Source of the DNA: Burkholderia cenocepacia
GTDB taxonomy: Bacteria > Pseudomonadota > Gammaproteobacteria > Burkholderiales > Burkholderiaceae
Assembly (NCBI RefSeq): GCF_900446215.1
Contig: NZ_UAQZ01000001.1
Span: 1,860,001 to 1,924,000, forward strand
Reading direction: 5' to 3'
Length of the DNA: 64,000 nucleotides
Below, one piece after another: positions 47,995 through 53,580 of this stretch. Numbering within the stretch: the stretch's first letter is position 1; each line of letters begins with the position of its first letter. Under the pieces are notes generated by a model. The model ran no database searches. It was not told the origin of the DNA and was given only the letters and a program-made list of their open reading frames with translations. The translations under genes were made by a program, and so were the position numbers.

Positions 47995-48810
47995 TCATCG
48001 GCCGTCGACCACGTCGCGCAGGAACGCGTCGAGCATCGCCACGTCGCCCCACGGCCGCTTGTATTCGCGATCGTGTTCGGCATCGGCCAGCATCGTCTCG
48101 ACCAGCGCGTGGATCGCCGGCCGGCGCGGCCCGTATTCGCCTTCGTTCGCGCTCATCTTCAGCGCGAGCAGCGCATTGAGCTCCGCGCGCACCGTCGGCT
48201 CGTGCACGGTCCCGTCGACGAGATCGGCGAAGCGCATCGGCGGCATGCCGAGCCCCATGTCGATCCAGCGCACCGCGAGCAGCGGACGCAGTACGTACAG
48301 GTACTTCTTGTAACGCACCGTGTCGCCTTGCAGATTGCCGCGGAAATTTTTCTTCGCCATCGCGAGGTAGTGATGACGCCCGCGTACCGGCGAGAAGAAC
48401 GCCGATGCCAGCGATCTGAGTCGCGGCGCCCAGCGCGCATCTTCGCGATACACGACGGGCGAGTCGAGCCATTCGAGCAGCGTCGGATTCGAGCGTCGCA
48501 GCAGTTGCAACGCCTTGCGCAATTCCCAGCCGCTGACGTCGAGCTCGTCGTCGAGCGGCCGCTCGATCACGTCGCGTTGCGGTTCGACGCTCAAGTACCA
48601 GTCGCGCCGGTGGGCGTACACGAAGCGTACGTCGTAATCGCTGTCCGGCGAAGCGAAGCCCCAGCCGCGGCTGCCCGATTCGCACGCGAACAGCACGCAT
48701 ACATCATGGCGGCGTTCGACTTCCGCGAGCTCCGCCATCACGCGTGCCCGTACCGCCGGGTCGATCGGATGCGCGCTGCGCACGGCCGTCATTGCGTTGT
48801 CGGTTTTCAT
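47995..48810 (-). CDS. RlaP-type nucleotidyltransferase of the RNA-repair operon
   Basis: A 271-residue nucleotidyltransferase of the DNA-polymerase-beta superfamily (COG3541, RNA-ligase-associated RlaP group). The active-site motif is ESGSRGWGFASPDSDYDVRF: Gly-Ser at 46-47 and the metal-binding pair Asp58 and Asp60. A long helical C-terminal part follows (YLAMAKKNFRGNL). It lies 56 bases after rtcB. The group is thought to add or edit nucleotides at RNA ends that RtcB then seals; the exact substrate is unknown. A second in-frame ATG at 48792 is possible, but this start has a GGAAA site. Confidence 0.85.
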   Translation of the reverse strand: MKTDNAMTAVRSAHPIDPAVRARVMAELAEVERRHDVCVLFACESGSRGWGFASPDSDYDVRFVYAHRRDWYLSVEPQRDVIERPLDDELDVSGWELRKALQLLRRSNPTLLEWLDSPVVYREDARWAPRLRSLASAFFSPVRGRHHYLAMAKKNFRGNLQGDTVRYKKYLYVLRPLLAVRWIDMGLGMPPMRFADLVDGTVHEPTVRAELNALLALKMSANEGEYGPRRPAIHALVETMLADAEHDREYKRPWGDVAMLDAFLRDVVDGR

Positions 48811-48865
48811 CGTTGTCGTTTTCCTTTCGTTGTGCGCGGCCGCTGGCCCTCGGCCGCACACCGCG

Positions 48866-50095
48866 CTATCCCTTCACGCACACCACCTGGCGCAGCGTAT
48901 GCACCACTTCGACGAGGCTGCGCTGGGCCGCCATCACCGCGTCGATGTCCTTGTAGGCCATCGGGATTTCGTCGACGACGCCCGCGTCCTTCCGGCATTC
49001 GACACCCTGCGTCGCCTTCGCCTGATCGTCGGCGGTGAAGCGGCGCTTCGCTTCGGTGCGGCTCATCGTCCGGCCCGCGCCGTGGCTGCACGAGCAGAAG
49101 CTTTCCGGGTTGCCGAGCCCGCGCACGATGAAGCTCTTCGCGCCCATCGAACCCGGAATGATCCCGAGCTGCCCCTTCTGCGCGGACACCGCGCCCTTGC
49201 GCGTGACGAGCACGTCTTCGCCGAAGTGGCGTTCGCGCTGCACGTAGTTGTGGTGGCAGTTCACCGCATGCGCGTCGACCGAGAACGGTGTGCCGATCAC
49301 GCCGCGCGCCGCGCCGATCACCGCGTCCATCATCGCCTGCCGGTTGCGCCGCGCGTAGTCCTGCGCCCAGCCGACCGCCTCGACGTAATCGTCGAAGTGC
49401 CGGCTGCCTTCGGTGAAGTACGCGAGATTACGGTCGGGCAGGTTCGCGATGTGTTGTCGCATGTCGGCCTGCGCGAGTTCGATGAACAGGCTGCCGATCG
49501 CATTGCCGACGCCGCGCGAGCCGCTGTGCAGCATGAACCACACGCGGTCCGCCTCGTCGATGCACACTTCGATGAAGTGGTTGCCGGTGCCGAGCGTGCC
49601 GAGATGCGCGTAGTGGTTCGTCTTTGCCAGCTTCGGATACTTGTCGACGATGCGCTGAAAGCCCGGCTGCAGCGATTTCCACGCGTCGGTCACGGCGGCC
49701 GGGGTGCGATCGCCCCATGCGCCCGGGTCGCGCCGGCCCGGCGCGCGGCCGTGCGGCACCGCGCGTTCGATCGCGCTGCGCAGCCCGCCAAGCGAATCGG
49801 GCAGGTCGGCCGCCGTCAGCGTCGTGCGCGCGGCCATCATTCCGCAGCCGATGTCGACGCCGACCGCGGCCGGGATGATCGCGCCCTTCGTCGGAATCAC
49901 GCTGCCGATCGTCGAGCCCTTGCCGAGGTGCACGTCCGGCATCACCGCGACGTGGCCGAAGATGAACGGCATTTGCGCGGTGTTGCGCAGTTGCGCGCGC
50001 GCTTCGTCCTCGACGGCGACGCCTTGCGTCCACATTTTCACCGGCTTGCCGTTCGCCAGTTCCATCACCTGATAATCCATGTCCATGTCGGTCAT
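48866..50095 (-). CDS. rtcB: RtcB RNA ligase
   Basis: A 409-residue RNA-splicing ligase that joins 2',3'-cyclic phosphate or 3'-phosphate ends to 5'-OH ends using GTP and Mn. Visible motifs: MPDVHLGKGSTIG (His56), GVDIGCGM (metal Cys84), GTLGTGNHF, HSGSRGVGN, and the guanylylation His338 in SCSHGAGRTMSR, in line with His337 of E. coli RtcB. The start MTDMDMDYQV is chosen because AGGTGA lies seven bases ahead and the length matches E. coli (408); an upstream ATG adds six residues. Middle gene of a slipin-rtcB-rlaP operon. No rtcA is in the window. Confidence 0.96.
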   Translation of the reverse strand: MTDMDMDYQVMELANGKPVKMWTQGVAVEDEARAQLRNTAQMPFIFGHVAVMPDVHLGKGSTIGSVIPTKGAIIPAAVGVDIGCGMMAARTTLTAADLPDSLGGLRSAIERAVPHGRAPGRRDPGAWGDRTPAAVTDAWKSLQPGFQRIVDKYPKLAKTNHYAHLGTLGTGNHFIEVCIDEADRVWFMLHSGSRGVGNAIGSLFIELAQADMRQHIANLPDRNLAYFTEGSRHFDDYVEAVGWAQDYARRNRQAMMDAVIGAARGVIGTPFSVDAHAVNCHHNYVQRERHFGEDVLVTRKGAVSAQKGQLGIIPGSMGAKSFIVRGLGNPESFCSCSHGAGRTMSRTEAKRRFTADDQAKATQGVECRKDAGVVDEIPMAYKDIDAVMAAQRSLVEVVHTLRQVVCVKG

Positions 50096-50156
50096 TTGCT
50101 TCACCTGATTCATTTCGGGACCGGCGCGACACATCTGCATCGCGCCGGAACCTGCA

Positions 50157-51296
50157 TTACGTGCCCTTGATGCTGACGAGCCCGTTCAGCACCTGGTCGA
50201 GACCGCCGAACACCGAGATGCGGTCGATCCGTTCCGCGACGCGCTCGAGCGTTTCCAGCTCCTTGAGCCGCAGCGCGGTCGGGTTTTCTTCCATCACCTT
50301 CGCGGTGTTTAGCAGCGAACGCGTGGCCGCCGTTTCCTCGCGGCGGCGAATCACGTTCGCCTGCGCGGATTTCTCCGCTTCGACCACCTGCGCGAGAATC
50401 GTCTTCATGTCGCCCGGCAGCACGATATCCTTCACGCCGACGCTGCGCACGTCCACGCCCGAACCGTCGAGACGGGCGCGCACCTGCGCGATCACGACCT
50501 CGTCGAGCGACTGCTTGTCCTCCAGCAGCTCGTCGAGCGAGCGCGTGCCGACCGCCGAACGCAGCGCGAACTGCAACTCGCGGTACAGGTGTTCGACCGG
50601 CTTCTGCAACTGGCCGAACGCATGCAGCACGTCCGCATAGCGCCACGTCGCCGACAGGTTCAGCCGCAGCGCGACCTTGTCGCGCGTCAGGATTTCCTGC
50701 CCGCCGACCTCGATCGCCTGCAAGCGCAGGTCGACCAGCTCGACCGCGACGTCGCGGTTGAAGCGCCAGAACGCCGACGCACCCGCGTCCAGCAGCCGCT
50801 CGATCTTGCCGTCGACCTTCAGCACGGCGACGTGGTACGCCGGCACCTGCGCCAGGAGCACGCCCGTCAGCCCCGCCACGCCGCGCGCACGCAGCGACGG
50901 TTGCGCGATGCGCTTCACCAGCGCCGCAGGCAGCATGCTGTCCTGCGCGAGGTCGATGCGCTCCAGCCGATGCGCGGTCAGGCCGCGCCAGTACAGCCGG
51001 CGCGTGCCGGGTGCCAGAATCTCGACGAGCACGTCGTCTTCATAGCGCAGGCCGGCTTCGTCGTCGGCGAGATCCATCGCGACGAAATACCGCGCGAGCA
51101 CGTCCGGTGCGTCGTGACGCAGGTAGTCGGCCAGCGCGTCGTCGGCGAGCGGCGCGTCGAGACGCGCGGTCTGCACCGACAGGCGCTTGAACGGATCGAA
51201 GGCCTTGAACACGCCCGGTTCCAGCACCTTCACGAAGTCGCCCTCGCTCATCAGCAGCGCGCGTTCGTTCTTTTTCACCACATGACGCTTCCACAT
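50157..51296 (-). CDS. Slipin/SPFH (band 7) protein of the RNA-repair operon
   Basis: A 379-residue SPFH/band-7 protein. The core runs VPAYHVAVLKVDGKIERLLD, then RRAL-type strands (LRLNLSATWRYADVLHAFGQ) and VDVRSVGVKDIVLPGDM, followed by a helical tail (VEAEKSAQANVIRRREETAA). The N-terminus has no strong membrane helix, so association with membranes would be peripheral. The first gene of the operon. Slipins and RtcB are neighbours in many bacteria with RtcR; the slipin role in repair is unknown. AGGAC lies seven bases before the start. Confidence 0.88.
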   Translation of the reverse strand: MWKRHVVKKNERALLMSEGDFVKVLEPGVFKAFDPFKRLSVQTARLDAPLADDALADYLRHDAPDVLARYFVAMDLADDEAGLRYEDDVLVEILAPGTRRLYWRGLTAHRLERIDLAQDSMLPAALVKRIAQPSLRARGVAGLTGVLLAQVPAYHVAVLKVDGKIERLLDAGASAFWRFNRDVAVELVDLRLQAIEVGGQEILTRDKVALRLNLSATWRYADVLHAFGQLQKPVEHLYRELQFALRSAVGTRSLDELLEDKQSLDEVVIAQVRARLDGSGVDVRSVGVKDIVLPGDMKTILAQVVEAEKSAQANVIRRREETAATRSLLNTAKVMEENPTALRLKELETLERVAERIDRISVFGGLDQVLNGLVSIKGT

Positions 51297-51552
51297 ATTT
51301 TTGTCCTTTTCTTCAATGGCCGCCGGGTAACGCGCATCGTGCGGATCGCGGGGCGACGCAATCGGGCGGGCGGCGCGCCGGCCGGCGTCGAAACGCATGG
51401 CGACGCCTGCTGCATTGCGTCGTCGTGCGCCTTCGCGCGGGCCGTGCGGCCGCCCGGCCGATCGCGCGGAACCGCAACCGGTCCGACGCGCGGCGGGCCT
51501 GTCGGCCCGCACCGGCGGGTACTGCCTTCATACGAGACCGTCCTTGCGGACA
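51297..51552 (-). other. Structured 5' leader between tRNA-like elements and slipin
   Basis: About 255 bases of the predicted leader. Two tight hairpins follow the second tRNA-like element: GTCC-GCAA-GGAC (about 51540-51551, a GNRA loop) and GCGGGCC-GACA-GGCCCGC (51493-51510). No gene with a ribosome site is supported here. The end carries an AGGAC site for slipin. Confidence 0.5.
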
Positions 51553-51625
51553 GCGTTCGAGCGGGATTCGAACCCGCCACCGGCCGGCTTTCGCCGGCTG
51601 CTCCACCTGGCTGAGCTTTCGAACA
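51553..51625 (-). ncRNA. tRNA-like cloverleaf with a GAAA-tetraloop in place of the anticodon loop
   Basis: A 73-base element on the minus strand with tRNA secondary structure: 7-bp acceptor (TGTTCGA with TCGAACG; the first pair is T-G), D-arm GCTC/GAGC with a GG in the loop, 5-base variable region and a perfect T-arm GCGGG-TTCGAAT-CCCGC. The anticodon arm is GCCGGC-GAAA-GCCGGC, a 6-bp stem capped by a GNRA tetraloop, so no anticodon exists. The arm is 16 bases, one short of normal. No CCA follows the acceptor. It lies inside the predicted leader of the RNA-repair operon and is clearly not a translational tRNA. Function unknown; possibly a decoy, a sensor or a substrate mimic. Confidence 0.8.
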
Positions 51626-51626
51626 A

Positions 51627-51712
51627 TGGGCGCCCCGGGATTCGAACCCGGGCGAGGCATCCTGGCGCGCGCCCCGTTGCCTTCGTCTGTCCATGGCGGC
51701 ATGCGCTACCGC
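51627..51712 (-). ncRNA. Degenerate tRNA-like element with intact T-arm and acceptor 3' half
   Basis: One base upstream of the previous element. A perfect T-arm (CCGGG-TTCGAAT-CCCGG) is followed by GGCGCCC and A, the 3' side of an acceptor. GGGCGC 24 bases before the T-arm can pair with GCGCCC, giving a compact acceptor/T-arm minihelix of about 48 bases (51627-51674). Further upstream is a D-arm-like GGTAGCGC (about 51703-51710) and TGCC...GGCA that could be an anticodon stem with an enlarged loop. The fold of the 5' part is uncertain. A third, weaker T-arm-like hairpin with TTCGA is at 51739-51762. Confidence 0.6.
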
Positions 51713-51798
51713 GACGAACGAGGTTCGGCGGCGGCGCACCAGCAGGGCTTGTCGAACCCTGGCTCGTGGGCCAGCGGGACATCCGGCGTCTTATATTT

Positions 51799-51814
51799 AG
51801 CGAGGAGCGTGCCA
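51799..51814 (-). promoter_or_regulatory. Sigma-54 promoter of the RNA-repair operon
   Basis: On the minus strand TGGCACG-CTCC-TCGCT, matching the sigma-54 consensus TGGCACG-N4-TTGCW at 11 of 12 fixed positions, including the invariant GG and GC. Transcription would start near 51787, giving a leader of about 490 bases that includes the tRNA-like elements before slipin. RtcR, a sigma-54 activator, is encoded divergently. Confidence 0.85.
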
Positions 51815-51963: not shown

Positions 51964-53580
51964 ATGCGCAAAACCGTCGCGATCGGTTTTCTCGGCACCG
52001 TGCTCGACCAAGGCGGCCGCGCGCCGCGCCGTTACCGCAAATGGCGGCCGACGATTTCGCTGTGCGAGCAGCCCGACCTGCCGATCGACCGGCTCGAACT
52101 GCTGCATTCGCTGGACTACACGCGTCTCGCCAACCAGGTGCGGGACGATCTCGCGCGCGTGTCGCCGCACACCGATGTGCGGCTCACGCCGGTCACGCTC
52201 CACGATCCGTGGGATTTCGAGGAGGTCTATGCGACGCTGCACGATTACGCACGCGCGTATCCGTTCGACCTCGAACACGAGGATTACCTGATCCACATCA
52301 CGACCGGCACGCACGTCGCGCAGATCTGCTGGTTCCTGCTCGCGGAAGCGCGCTACCTGCCCGCGCGCCTCGTGCAGACGGGGCCGCCGCAGCGAACCGA
52401 CGAAGGGCCGAGCGGGCCGGGCACGATCTCGGTGATCGATCTCGACCTGTCGCGCTACAACCGGATCGCGCAGCGCTTCACGCGCGAGCGCGACGAAACG
52501 GTGTCGTTCCTGAAGGCCGGCATCGCGACGCGCAACGCGCGCTTCAATGCGCTGATCGAGCAACTCGAGCGCGTGGCGGTGCGTTCGCGCGCGCCGATGC
52601 TGCTGGTCGGGCCGACGGGGGCCGGCAAGTCGTTTCTCGCGAAGCGCGTGTACGAGCTGAAGCGCGGCCGGCATCGGCTCGCGGGGCCGTTCATCGAGAT
52701 CAACTGCGCGACGCTGCGCGGCGACGCGGCGATGTCGACGCTGTTCGGTCACGTGAAGGGCGCGTTCACAGGGGCGCAGTCGGCGCGCGCGGGGCTGCTG
52801 CGCGCGGCGGACGGCGGGCTGCTGTTTCTCGACGAGATCGGCGAACTCGGGCTCGACGAACAGGCGATGCTGCTGAAGGCGATCGAGGAGAAGCGCTTCC
52901 TGCCGGTCGGCGCGGACGTCGAGGCGACCAGCGATTTCGAACTGATTGCGGGCACGCACCGCGATCTGCGGCAGATGGTGGCGGCCGGCACGTTCCGCGA
53001 GGACCTCTATGCGCGGATCAACCTCTGGACCTATGAATTGCCAGGGCTGGCCGAGCGCCGCGAGGACATCGAGCCGAACCTCGAATTCGAGCTCGACCGG
53101 TTCGGTCGCGAGCAGGGCGAGCAGGTGCGGTTCAACGTCGAGGCGAAGCGGCGCTATCTCGCGTTCGCGGCCTCGCCGCGCGCGACGTGGGCCGGCAACT
53201 TCCGCGAGTTGTCGGCGTCGGTCACCCGGATGGCGACGCTGGCCGATGCGGGGCGCATTACCGAGGCGCTCGCCGAGCAGGAAGTCGAGCGGCTGACGCG
53301 CACGTGGTCGCCGCCGGGGGGCACGGGGGCATCCGATGCGTGCGTCGACGCGGTGTTCGGTGCGCGCGCGGCGGAACTCGACCTGTTCGACCGTGCGCAG
53401 CTCGAACGCGTGCTCGACGTGTGCCGCACGTCGGCGAGCCTGTCGGAAGCCGGGCGCACGCTGTTCGCGGTATCGCGGCAGAGCAAGAAGCAGCCGAACG
53501 ACGCGGACCGCCTGCGCAAGTATCTCGCGCGGTTCGGGCTCGATTGGGACGGTGTGCGGCGCGCGCTCGACGGTGTGTGA
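51964..53580 (+). CDS. rtcR: RtcR sigma-54-dependent activator
   Basis: A 538-residue activator. The N-terminal CARF-type sensor domain (about residues 1-170, including DYLIHITTGTHVAQICWFLL) binds RNA-derived ligands in RtcR; in Salmonella, 5' tRNA fragments with cyclic-phosphate ends are reported to activate it. The AAA+ domain has Walker A GPTGAGKS at 216-223, the sigma-54-contact loop GAFTGA at 266-271 and Walker B GLLFLDE at 285-291. A C-terminal helix-turn-helix lies around SLSEAGRTLFAVSRQSKKQP. It is divergent from the slipin-rtcB-rlaP operon and should switch it on after RNA damage. Confidence 0.96.
   Translation: MRKTVAIGFLGTVLDQGGRAPRRYRKWRPTISLCEQPDLPIDRLELLHSLDYTRLANQVRDDLARVSPHTDVRLTPVTLHDPWDFEEVYATLHDYARAYPFDLEHEDYLIHITTGTHVAQICWFLLAEARYLPARLVQTGPPQRTDEGPSGPGTISVIDLDLSRYNRIAQRFTRERDETVSFLKAGIATRNARFNALIEQLERVAVRSRAPMLLVGPTGAGKSFLAKRVYELKRGRHRLAGPFIEINCATLRGDAAMSTLFGHVKGAFTGAQSARAGLLRAADGGLLFLDEIGELGLDEQAMLLKAIEEKRFLPVGADVEATSDFELIAGTHRDLRQMVAAGTFREDLYARINLWTYELPGLAERREDIEPNLEFELDRFGREQGEQVRFNVEAKRRYLAFAASPRATWAGNFRELSASVTRMATLADAGRITEALAEQEVERLTRTWSPPGGTGASDACVDAVFGARAAELDLFDRAQLERVLDVCRTSASLSEAGRTLFAVSRQSKKQPNDADRLRKYLARFGLDWDGVRRALDGV

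Follow-up and report, generated by a model that had tools for sequence, protein, structure and literature searches.

The 64,000-nucleotide stretch of Burkholderia cenocepacia DNA analysed here (hereafter the window) carries an RNA-repair locus in which the gene for the activator RtcR diverges from the genes for a slipin (an SPFH/Band-7 protein), the RNA ligase RtcB and the nucleotidyltransferase RlaP. Two tRNA-like elements in tandem, preceded by a structured 5′ domain, are encoded in the leader of the slipin gene; their folds covary across diverse loci, and they belong mainly to slipin. The folds, the covariation, the linkage to slipin, the missing or drifting anticodons and the absence of TROVE genes lead us, with little better than even confidence, to read this tandem tRNA-mimic leader as a structural RNA partner of slipin in tRNA repair.

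Folds and covariation of the tandem leader

The rtcR–slipin gap holds, on the minus strand and in the order in which they would be transcribed, a sigma-54-type site, the 5′ domain, the first and second tRNA-like elements (TLS1 and TLS2), a hairpin and a conserved GCAGTACCCGCCGG motif; slipin, rtcB and rlaP come next. The original prediction placed two tRNA-like elements between the promoter and slipin on the same strand, which ARAGORN (for TLS2) and a sub-threshold Rfam match (for TLS1) confirm; that the operon encodes mimics of tRNA is likewise supported. TLS1 (51628–51675) is a minihelix of an acceptor, a short D-like hairpin and a T-arm, and lacks an anticodon arm. TLS2 (51554–51625; ARAGORN and covariation) is a full cloverleaf whose anticodon arm in the window is a 6-bp stem capped by a GAAA tetraloop, and which ARAGORN reports at 51553–51625 as ‘tRNA-???’, without an identity. 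The structured RNA extends beyond the range first described, which left out two covarying parts: the 5′ domain (51695–51772), a hairpin GGGTT..CCC followed by a long hairpin closed by CTGG-TGC / GCA-TG-CCG and represented by a covariance model that we call R1, and the hairpin CTGTCC-GCAA-GGACGG directly 3′ of TLS2 (51538–51553).

The two elements were tested on 50 dereplicated loci with a tandem pair, all of which were kept for tests of the acceptors and 3′ ends; the 47-row alignment of TLS2 omits L091, L105 and L110. In this alignment, 90.3% of cells pair and the covariation is 0.416; shuffling the partners lowers it to 0.129, and sliding them to 0.109 or less. The D stem (98.4% paired) and the anticodon stem (95.6%) had not been used to find the elements, and the anticodon stem shows changes on both sides at 5 of its 5 pairs. 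Cloverleaf pairs are thus conserved elsewhere, one of the two points on which the original prediction was to stand or fall, and TLS2 has the covarying stems of the tRNA fold (RF00005). In both elements, swapping the 3′ strand for that of another locus weakens the pairing of the acceptor (TLS1, from 5.98 to 4.89 of 7, z = 12.6; TLS2, from 5.01 to 4.15, z = 8.6; n = 50 each). This comparison was used in place of RNAalifold, which recovered the T-arm alone from the ungapped TLS1 alignment; a short-window test of TLS1 covered 17 hand-picked loci. The 5′ domain was aligned in 42 rows (43 representatives among 82 motif-chosen loci, with L060 omitted), in which 93.4% of cells pair, covariation is 0.416 versus 0.161 for shuffled partners and double changes occur at 13 of 18 pairs, figures to be read with a control (control b) that is biased in the domain’s favour because the alignment was chosen by motif and the structure was derived from that same alignment. 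The hairpin after TLS2 also covaries, with double changes at 3 of 4 pairs in a 23-locus alignment of the 3′ region.

Conservation upstream of slipin

Slipin loci came from three sources: 200 genomes of the family, of which 17 gave a match (3 of these being distant Band-7 genes), 398 genomes of the phylum (23 with a match) and a named genome collection (the best 80 of at least 558 relatives). The resulting 119 loci (L001–L119) were reduced to 114 by dropping L015–L017 (the distant Band-7 genes, without the element), L116 (cut by a contig end) and L098 (the same place as L001); the 114 leaders comprise 112 distinct ones, L003/L021 and L011/L028 each being one place taken twice. A T-arm descriptor was run on the 760 nt upstream of slipin, and T-arms 65–83 nt apart were counted as a tandem pair. 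At least one T-arm was found in 109 of the 114 loci (107 of 112 distinct leaders) and a tandem pair in 85 (83 of 112). The corresponding counts for single arms and pairs were 1 and 0 of 114 on the reverse complement, and 3.1% and 0/5700 in first-order Markov shuffles. The pair at L091 is included in these counts, but lies further upstream and most likely consists of ordinary tRNA genes. Because many of the 114 loci are close Burkholderia, the even draw of 398 genomes carries most weight. Slipin occurs in 23 of these genomes, the window’s own included, and one locus is cut by a contig end; all 22 assessable loci have at least one T-arm, and 21 have the tandem pair. Slipin and the RNA occur together in named members of the beta- and gammaproteobacteria, and genomes from further classes of the phylum show the same linkage.

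The R1 model gave a consistent picture. In its own genome, the 5′ domain was found at E = 1.9e-9 and the next best match at 0.26, its own locus being among the model rows. Over the 398 genomes there were 10 matches at E ≤ 0.05, and the 8 with E < 1e-4 are without exception on the slipin strand, 386–725 nt upstream of the slipin match. The weak matches in G326 (E = 0.013, L128) and G508 (E = 0.029, L129) were rejected as chance, with no tRNA-like folds in the following ~500 nt. Among 76 loci outside the model, many of them close relatives of model rows, 49 matched at E ≤ 0.001. No Rfam 15 family matches the 5′ domain, either in the window or in the 20 relatives scanned, and the domain would form a new Rfam entry.

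Outside the phylum, a Subdoligranulum locus (Bacillota, L161) has slipin with CGGTGCGC..GCGTATGCCG and two T-arms upstream; as the arms are 24 nt apart and R1 scores 12.0 bits (E = 0.34), conservation at this distance is suggestive only. Phage records contained no slipin match at E ≤ 1e-10. Virus-binned contigs yielded four slipin relatives, two with upstream T-arms and two with less than 170 nt of upstream DNA.

Linkage to slipin and to RtcR

The RNA had been described as a feature of an RtcR- and sigma-54-driven leader, a view that the comparison of loci with and without these partners does not support as it stands. The sigma-54 motif is present at 67 of 77 slipin loci with a divergent RtcR versus 2 of 37 without RtcR found, as judged from 0.6–3 kb of upstream DNA. 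At these 37 loci the tandem pair is found in 33 (the doubtful L091 among them), and at 18 of the 37 no RtcB was found either. RtcR occurs in 27 of the 398 genomes, and in 17 of these slipin is missing (E ≤ 1e-45); none of the 17 has an R1 match or a T-arm pair adjoining RtcR, and as to single T-arms, 15 show none there, an AT-rich match that looks like chance accounts for one genome and a lone tRNA gene for the last. Slipin adjoins RtcR in seven of the other ten RtcR genomes, and all seven have one T-arm or more. In the remaining three (G468, G321 and G301), slipin is found on a different contig or at a distance of 5 or 2 kb from RtcR, and no T-arm occurs within the first 800 nt beyond RtcR. 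G301 has rtcB between RtcR and slipin, and its T-arms precede slipin, not rtcB. Since the pair is kept without RtcR and is absent from RtcR genomes without slipin, the RNA belongs mainly to slipin, and RtcR would so be one way of driving it.

These counts also bear on the proposals that the operon makes its own feedback ligand for RtcR or a test substrate for RtcB and RlaP. The position of the RNA between the gene for RtcR and those for the enzymes would suit such roles. Retention of the RNA at slipin loci without RtcR found (37, of which 18 show no RtcB either), and the scarcity of T-arms at RtcR loci without slipin both speak against them, and we give these roles less than one chance in ten.

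Anticodon loops and 3′ ends

A seven-nucleotide anticodon loop with a conserved triplet, as expected of a tRNA, is not a feature of TLS2. Whereas 26 of the 47 cloverleaves have a 7-nt loop, the other 21 do not and include GNRA- and UUCG-type caps; the window has a GAAA tetraloop. T33 is present in 21 of the 26, and these 21 carry 11 different triplets. Nothing in the aligned loci looks like selection for one anticodon. The missing and drifting anticodons argue against decoding and against an anticodon-specific decoy.

A decoy or sponge for tRNA-cutting toxins, as originally suggested, therefore fits poorly. In its favour are the tRNA shape itself and the 7-nt loops and T33 that part of the cloverleaves retain, together with a report that an RtcR operon answers tRNA breaks and the proposal that YrlA, a tRNA-like RNA, is a competitive nuclease inhibitor (PMC7790460). 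The same paper reports no YrlA fragments on DNA damage. In addition to the loop counts, TLS1 mostly lacks the D-arm and anticodon layout: by a crude pattern, 35 of 50 loci have no D-arm motif, and the 15 that do include several Pseudomonas with a full first cloverleaf. We put a decoy at about one chance in ten.

The 3′ ends tell on a different alternative. An encoded NCCA follows TLS1 in 19 of 50 loci, compared with 0.87 expected, and follows TLS2 in 4 of 50 (18/49 and 3/49 without L091); the frequency after TLS1 is compatible with tRNA-type 3′-end handling. The main rival to a slipin partner is a cis-acting leader, in which the folds would serve as processing or stability signals (for RNase P, RNase Z or the CCA enzyme) or control the translation of slipin, with no role in trans. 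Besides the NCCA after TLS1, this explanation draws on the position of the folds in the slipin 5′ leader, at a similar distance across many loci, and on the resemblance of TLS1 to mascRNA (RF01684), a processed tRNA-like RNA. It is weakened by the rarity of NCCA after TLS2, by the often short acceptor of that element and by the covarying 5′ domain, which tRNA-type processing would presumably not need. We regard a purely cis-acting leader as rather unlikely, at somewhat over one chance in five.

Comparison with known RNAs and proteins

No Rfam family reaches its threshold on the window, the tRNA family RF00005 included, but RF00005 does so on a leader element in 20 of 20 relatives scanned. This match, the ordinary-looking tRNA genes that lie further upstream at L056, L076 and L099 and the L091 pair that is likely of this kind would suit ordinary tRNA genes, tRNA relics or an island attachment site. 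Against such an origin stand the same tandem layout in unrelated genomes, the missing or drifting anticodons, the linked 5′ domain and the lack of a second copy in the own genome, where the other 37 matches are at most 43 bases long. We consider this explanation highly improbable.

The mascRNA/menRNA family, which is eukaryotic, shares with TLS1 an acceptor and T-arm with a reduced D region, but TLS1 scores 25.9 bits against it, below the gathering threshold of 42.5. A closer relative may have been described by Burroughs and Aravind in 2016, who reportedly described SPFH/Band-7 RNA-repair modules with a cognate non-coding RNA, a ‘novel tRNA-like molecule’. We take this molecule to be very likely of the same class as the present RNA, which likewise adjoins an SPFH/Band-7 gene at an RNA-repair locus. 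The tandem arrangement, the covarying 5′ domain, the drift of the anticodon and the independence from RtcR emerge from the present comparison, and perhaps also from the 2016 work; the part of the literature that was searched, which did not include the 2016 paper, gave no account of the tandem layout or of a 5′ domain that covaries.

Among described systems, the nearest parallel is the rsr-yrlBA-rtcBA operon, which is controlled by RtcR and whose tRNA-like RNA, YrlA, is encoded beside Ro60 (Rsr) (PMC7790460). By analogy, both systems would place a tRNA-like RNA in an RtcR-controlled repair operon next to an RNA-binding protein that is not an enzyme. They differ in that the partner gene here is slipin, not Ro60, and that the RNA has tandem modules in the order 5′ domain–TLS1–TLS2. 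The YrlA model (RF02553) scores 17.9 and 17.5 bits in the window against a gathering threshold of 69, no match at the gathering threshold occurs in 20 related loci, and a TROVE/Ro60 gene is present in neither the own genome (0/1) nor any of 34 other slipin genomes (0/34), a count for which the base rate was not measured. Together, the YrlA scores and the Ro60 search indicate that the present RNA is not a Y RNA.

The structure model of slipin consists of three tandem beta modules, an SPFH domain and a long helix. Among 50 of the 386 Foldseek matches, slipin aligns over 427–440 columns to the listed vault protein chains and over 106–262 columns to the others. Vault particles, composed of major vault protein and vault RNA, may offer a likeness (an SPFH protein with a small RNA, and a long alignment), in which RNA binding by slipin is putative. 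The whole-chain match has a template modelling score of 0.33–0.37 by query and a root-mean-square deviation of 14–16, and the N-terminal half of slipin alone has no significant structural match. From this model, it is conceivable though unlikely that slipin, with its three beta modules, SPFH shoulder and cap helix, forms a vault-like cage that the double mimic and 5′ domain template or gate. If so, broken tRNAs and RtcB would meet inside.

A proposed structural RNA partner of slipin

Our preferred reading, a structural partner of slipin, would work as follows. Its transcription would start at the predicted sigma-54 promoter, so that under RtcR control the cell would produce the leader along with slipin, RtcB and RlaP. 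Oligomers of slipin might bind this leader, whole or as a released fragment, and the tRNA shape might dock or position tRNA-handling enzymes and broken tRNAs. A missing or drifting anticodon would bar the mimic from translation and shield it from anticodon nucleases. The RNA of slipin would then be analogous to the tRNA-like Y RNA in its possible service to Ro60 in rsr-yrlBA-rtcBA operons. Sequence, folds, covariation and linkage are observed; the start of transcription, the binding and the scaffold role are the predicted parts of this scheme.

Several observations weigh against this reading. Linkage to slipin, taken alone, is also compatible with a cis-acting leader, and the acceptors of TLS2 are often short (72.5% of cells paired). 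The descriptor finds no tandem pair in 29 of the 114 slipin loci and no T-arm at five (L031, L039, L048, L093 and L095). L031, L039 and L048, from Pseudomonas donghuensis, P. aegrilactucae and P. entomophila, still have the operon, the 5′ domain and some of the 3′ region, with no recognisable T-loop or tRNA-like fold, an apparent loss of the mimic within an otherwise conserved leader. Of the 23 slipin genomes in the phylum draw, R1 recovers only 8; the 15 that it misses are 14 with distant slipins and G569, whose locus (L103) does reach 48 bits in the search of the collected loci, so that some matches are lost to the strict genome filter. The limited upstream DNA from which RtcR absence was judged and the missing base rate for TROVE count in the same direction. 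Finally, G519 (L148), which belongs to a different class of the phylum, has one canonical-looking tRNA gene, CCA included, between the sigma-54 site and rtcB, and G589 (L170) and G618 (L171), of the same genus, have this layout in common, one before rtcB and the other before a Ro60 vWA + TROVE gene. Some RtcR leaders therefore use a tRNA-like RNA with other partners, and such RNAs are not confined to slipin.

A double tRNA mimic tied to slipin would point to an RNA–protein repair scaffold parallel to Ro60 and Y RNA, and a scaffold would bear on how bacterial RtcB finds its substrates. The leader also offers a concrete RNA for knock-out and pull-down, and its relatives form a natural series of RNAs that keep the tRNA shape but have lost or changed the anticodon loop.

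Locus layout and neighbouring features

The promoter proposed to face slipin-rtcB-rlaP corresponds to a sigma-54-type site, TGGCAC-N5-TCGC (TGGCACGCTCCTCGC), at 51800–51814 on the minus strand. No sigma-70 promoter turned up in a simple scan, whose sole terminator-like site (51967–51981) lies outside the interval from the RNA to slipin. The conserved GCAGTACCCGCCGG motif of the RNA’s 3′ part is at 51504–51525 (minus strand). Pfam bore out the predicted neighbours: slipin (SPFH/Band_7; 50157–51296, ATG at 51296; PF01145, E = 3.1e-27), the RNA ligase gene rtcB (48866–50140; PF01139, E = 2.2e-130) and the nucleotidyltransferase gene rlaP (47998–48861; PF10127, E = 8.2e-94), all on the minus strand, and the divergent rtcR, a CARF-type sigma-54 activator, on the plus strand (51964–53580, start 51964; PF06956, E = 1.9e-82; Sigma54_activat, E = 5.3e-50). 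With a divergent RtcR, a sigma-54 site and RtcB, the locus has, at the sequence level, the make-up of an RtcR-controlled RNA-repair operon. The GC-rich segment from the RNA core to slipin (51297–51503, minus strand) is strongly conserved in Burkholderia and open in the slipin frame.

The RtcR leaders of L148, L170 and L171 combine a GGGGCGG..CCGCCCC-type hairpin with one tRNA-like gene with an encoded CCA. At L056, L076 and L099, slipin loci without RtcR found, slipin lies ~1.1–2.6 kb downstream of the same-strand tRNA genes mentioned above; L056 comes from Piscinibacter caeni MQ-18 and shows no RtcR in 3 kb of upstream DNA. The loci of other environmental strains include L040 (Pseudomonas nitroreducens TX1) and L073 (Variovorax sp. 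Root473), the latter with one recognised T-arm. Enterobacterial slipin-rlaP loci (L089, L092, L094, L096 and L159) have a reduced leader with one T-arm, and no rtcB match or annotation in the available DNA. At L075 (4210–5325) and L079 (4209–5333), slipin is followed by an AAA ATPase gene and preceded by the RNA, with no RtcR or RtcB in the 3-kb flanks. The slipin matches of L026, L084, L085, L088 and L097 are ~140–150 residues longer, the extra stretch being N-terminal, and slipin relatives of 511–591 amino acids are present among the 120 listed of 7997 protein relatives.
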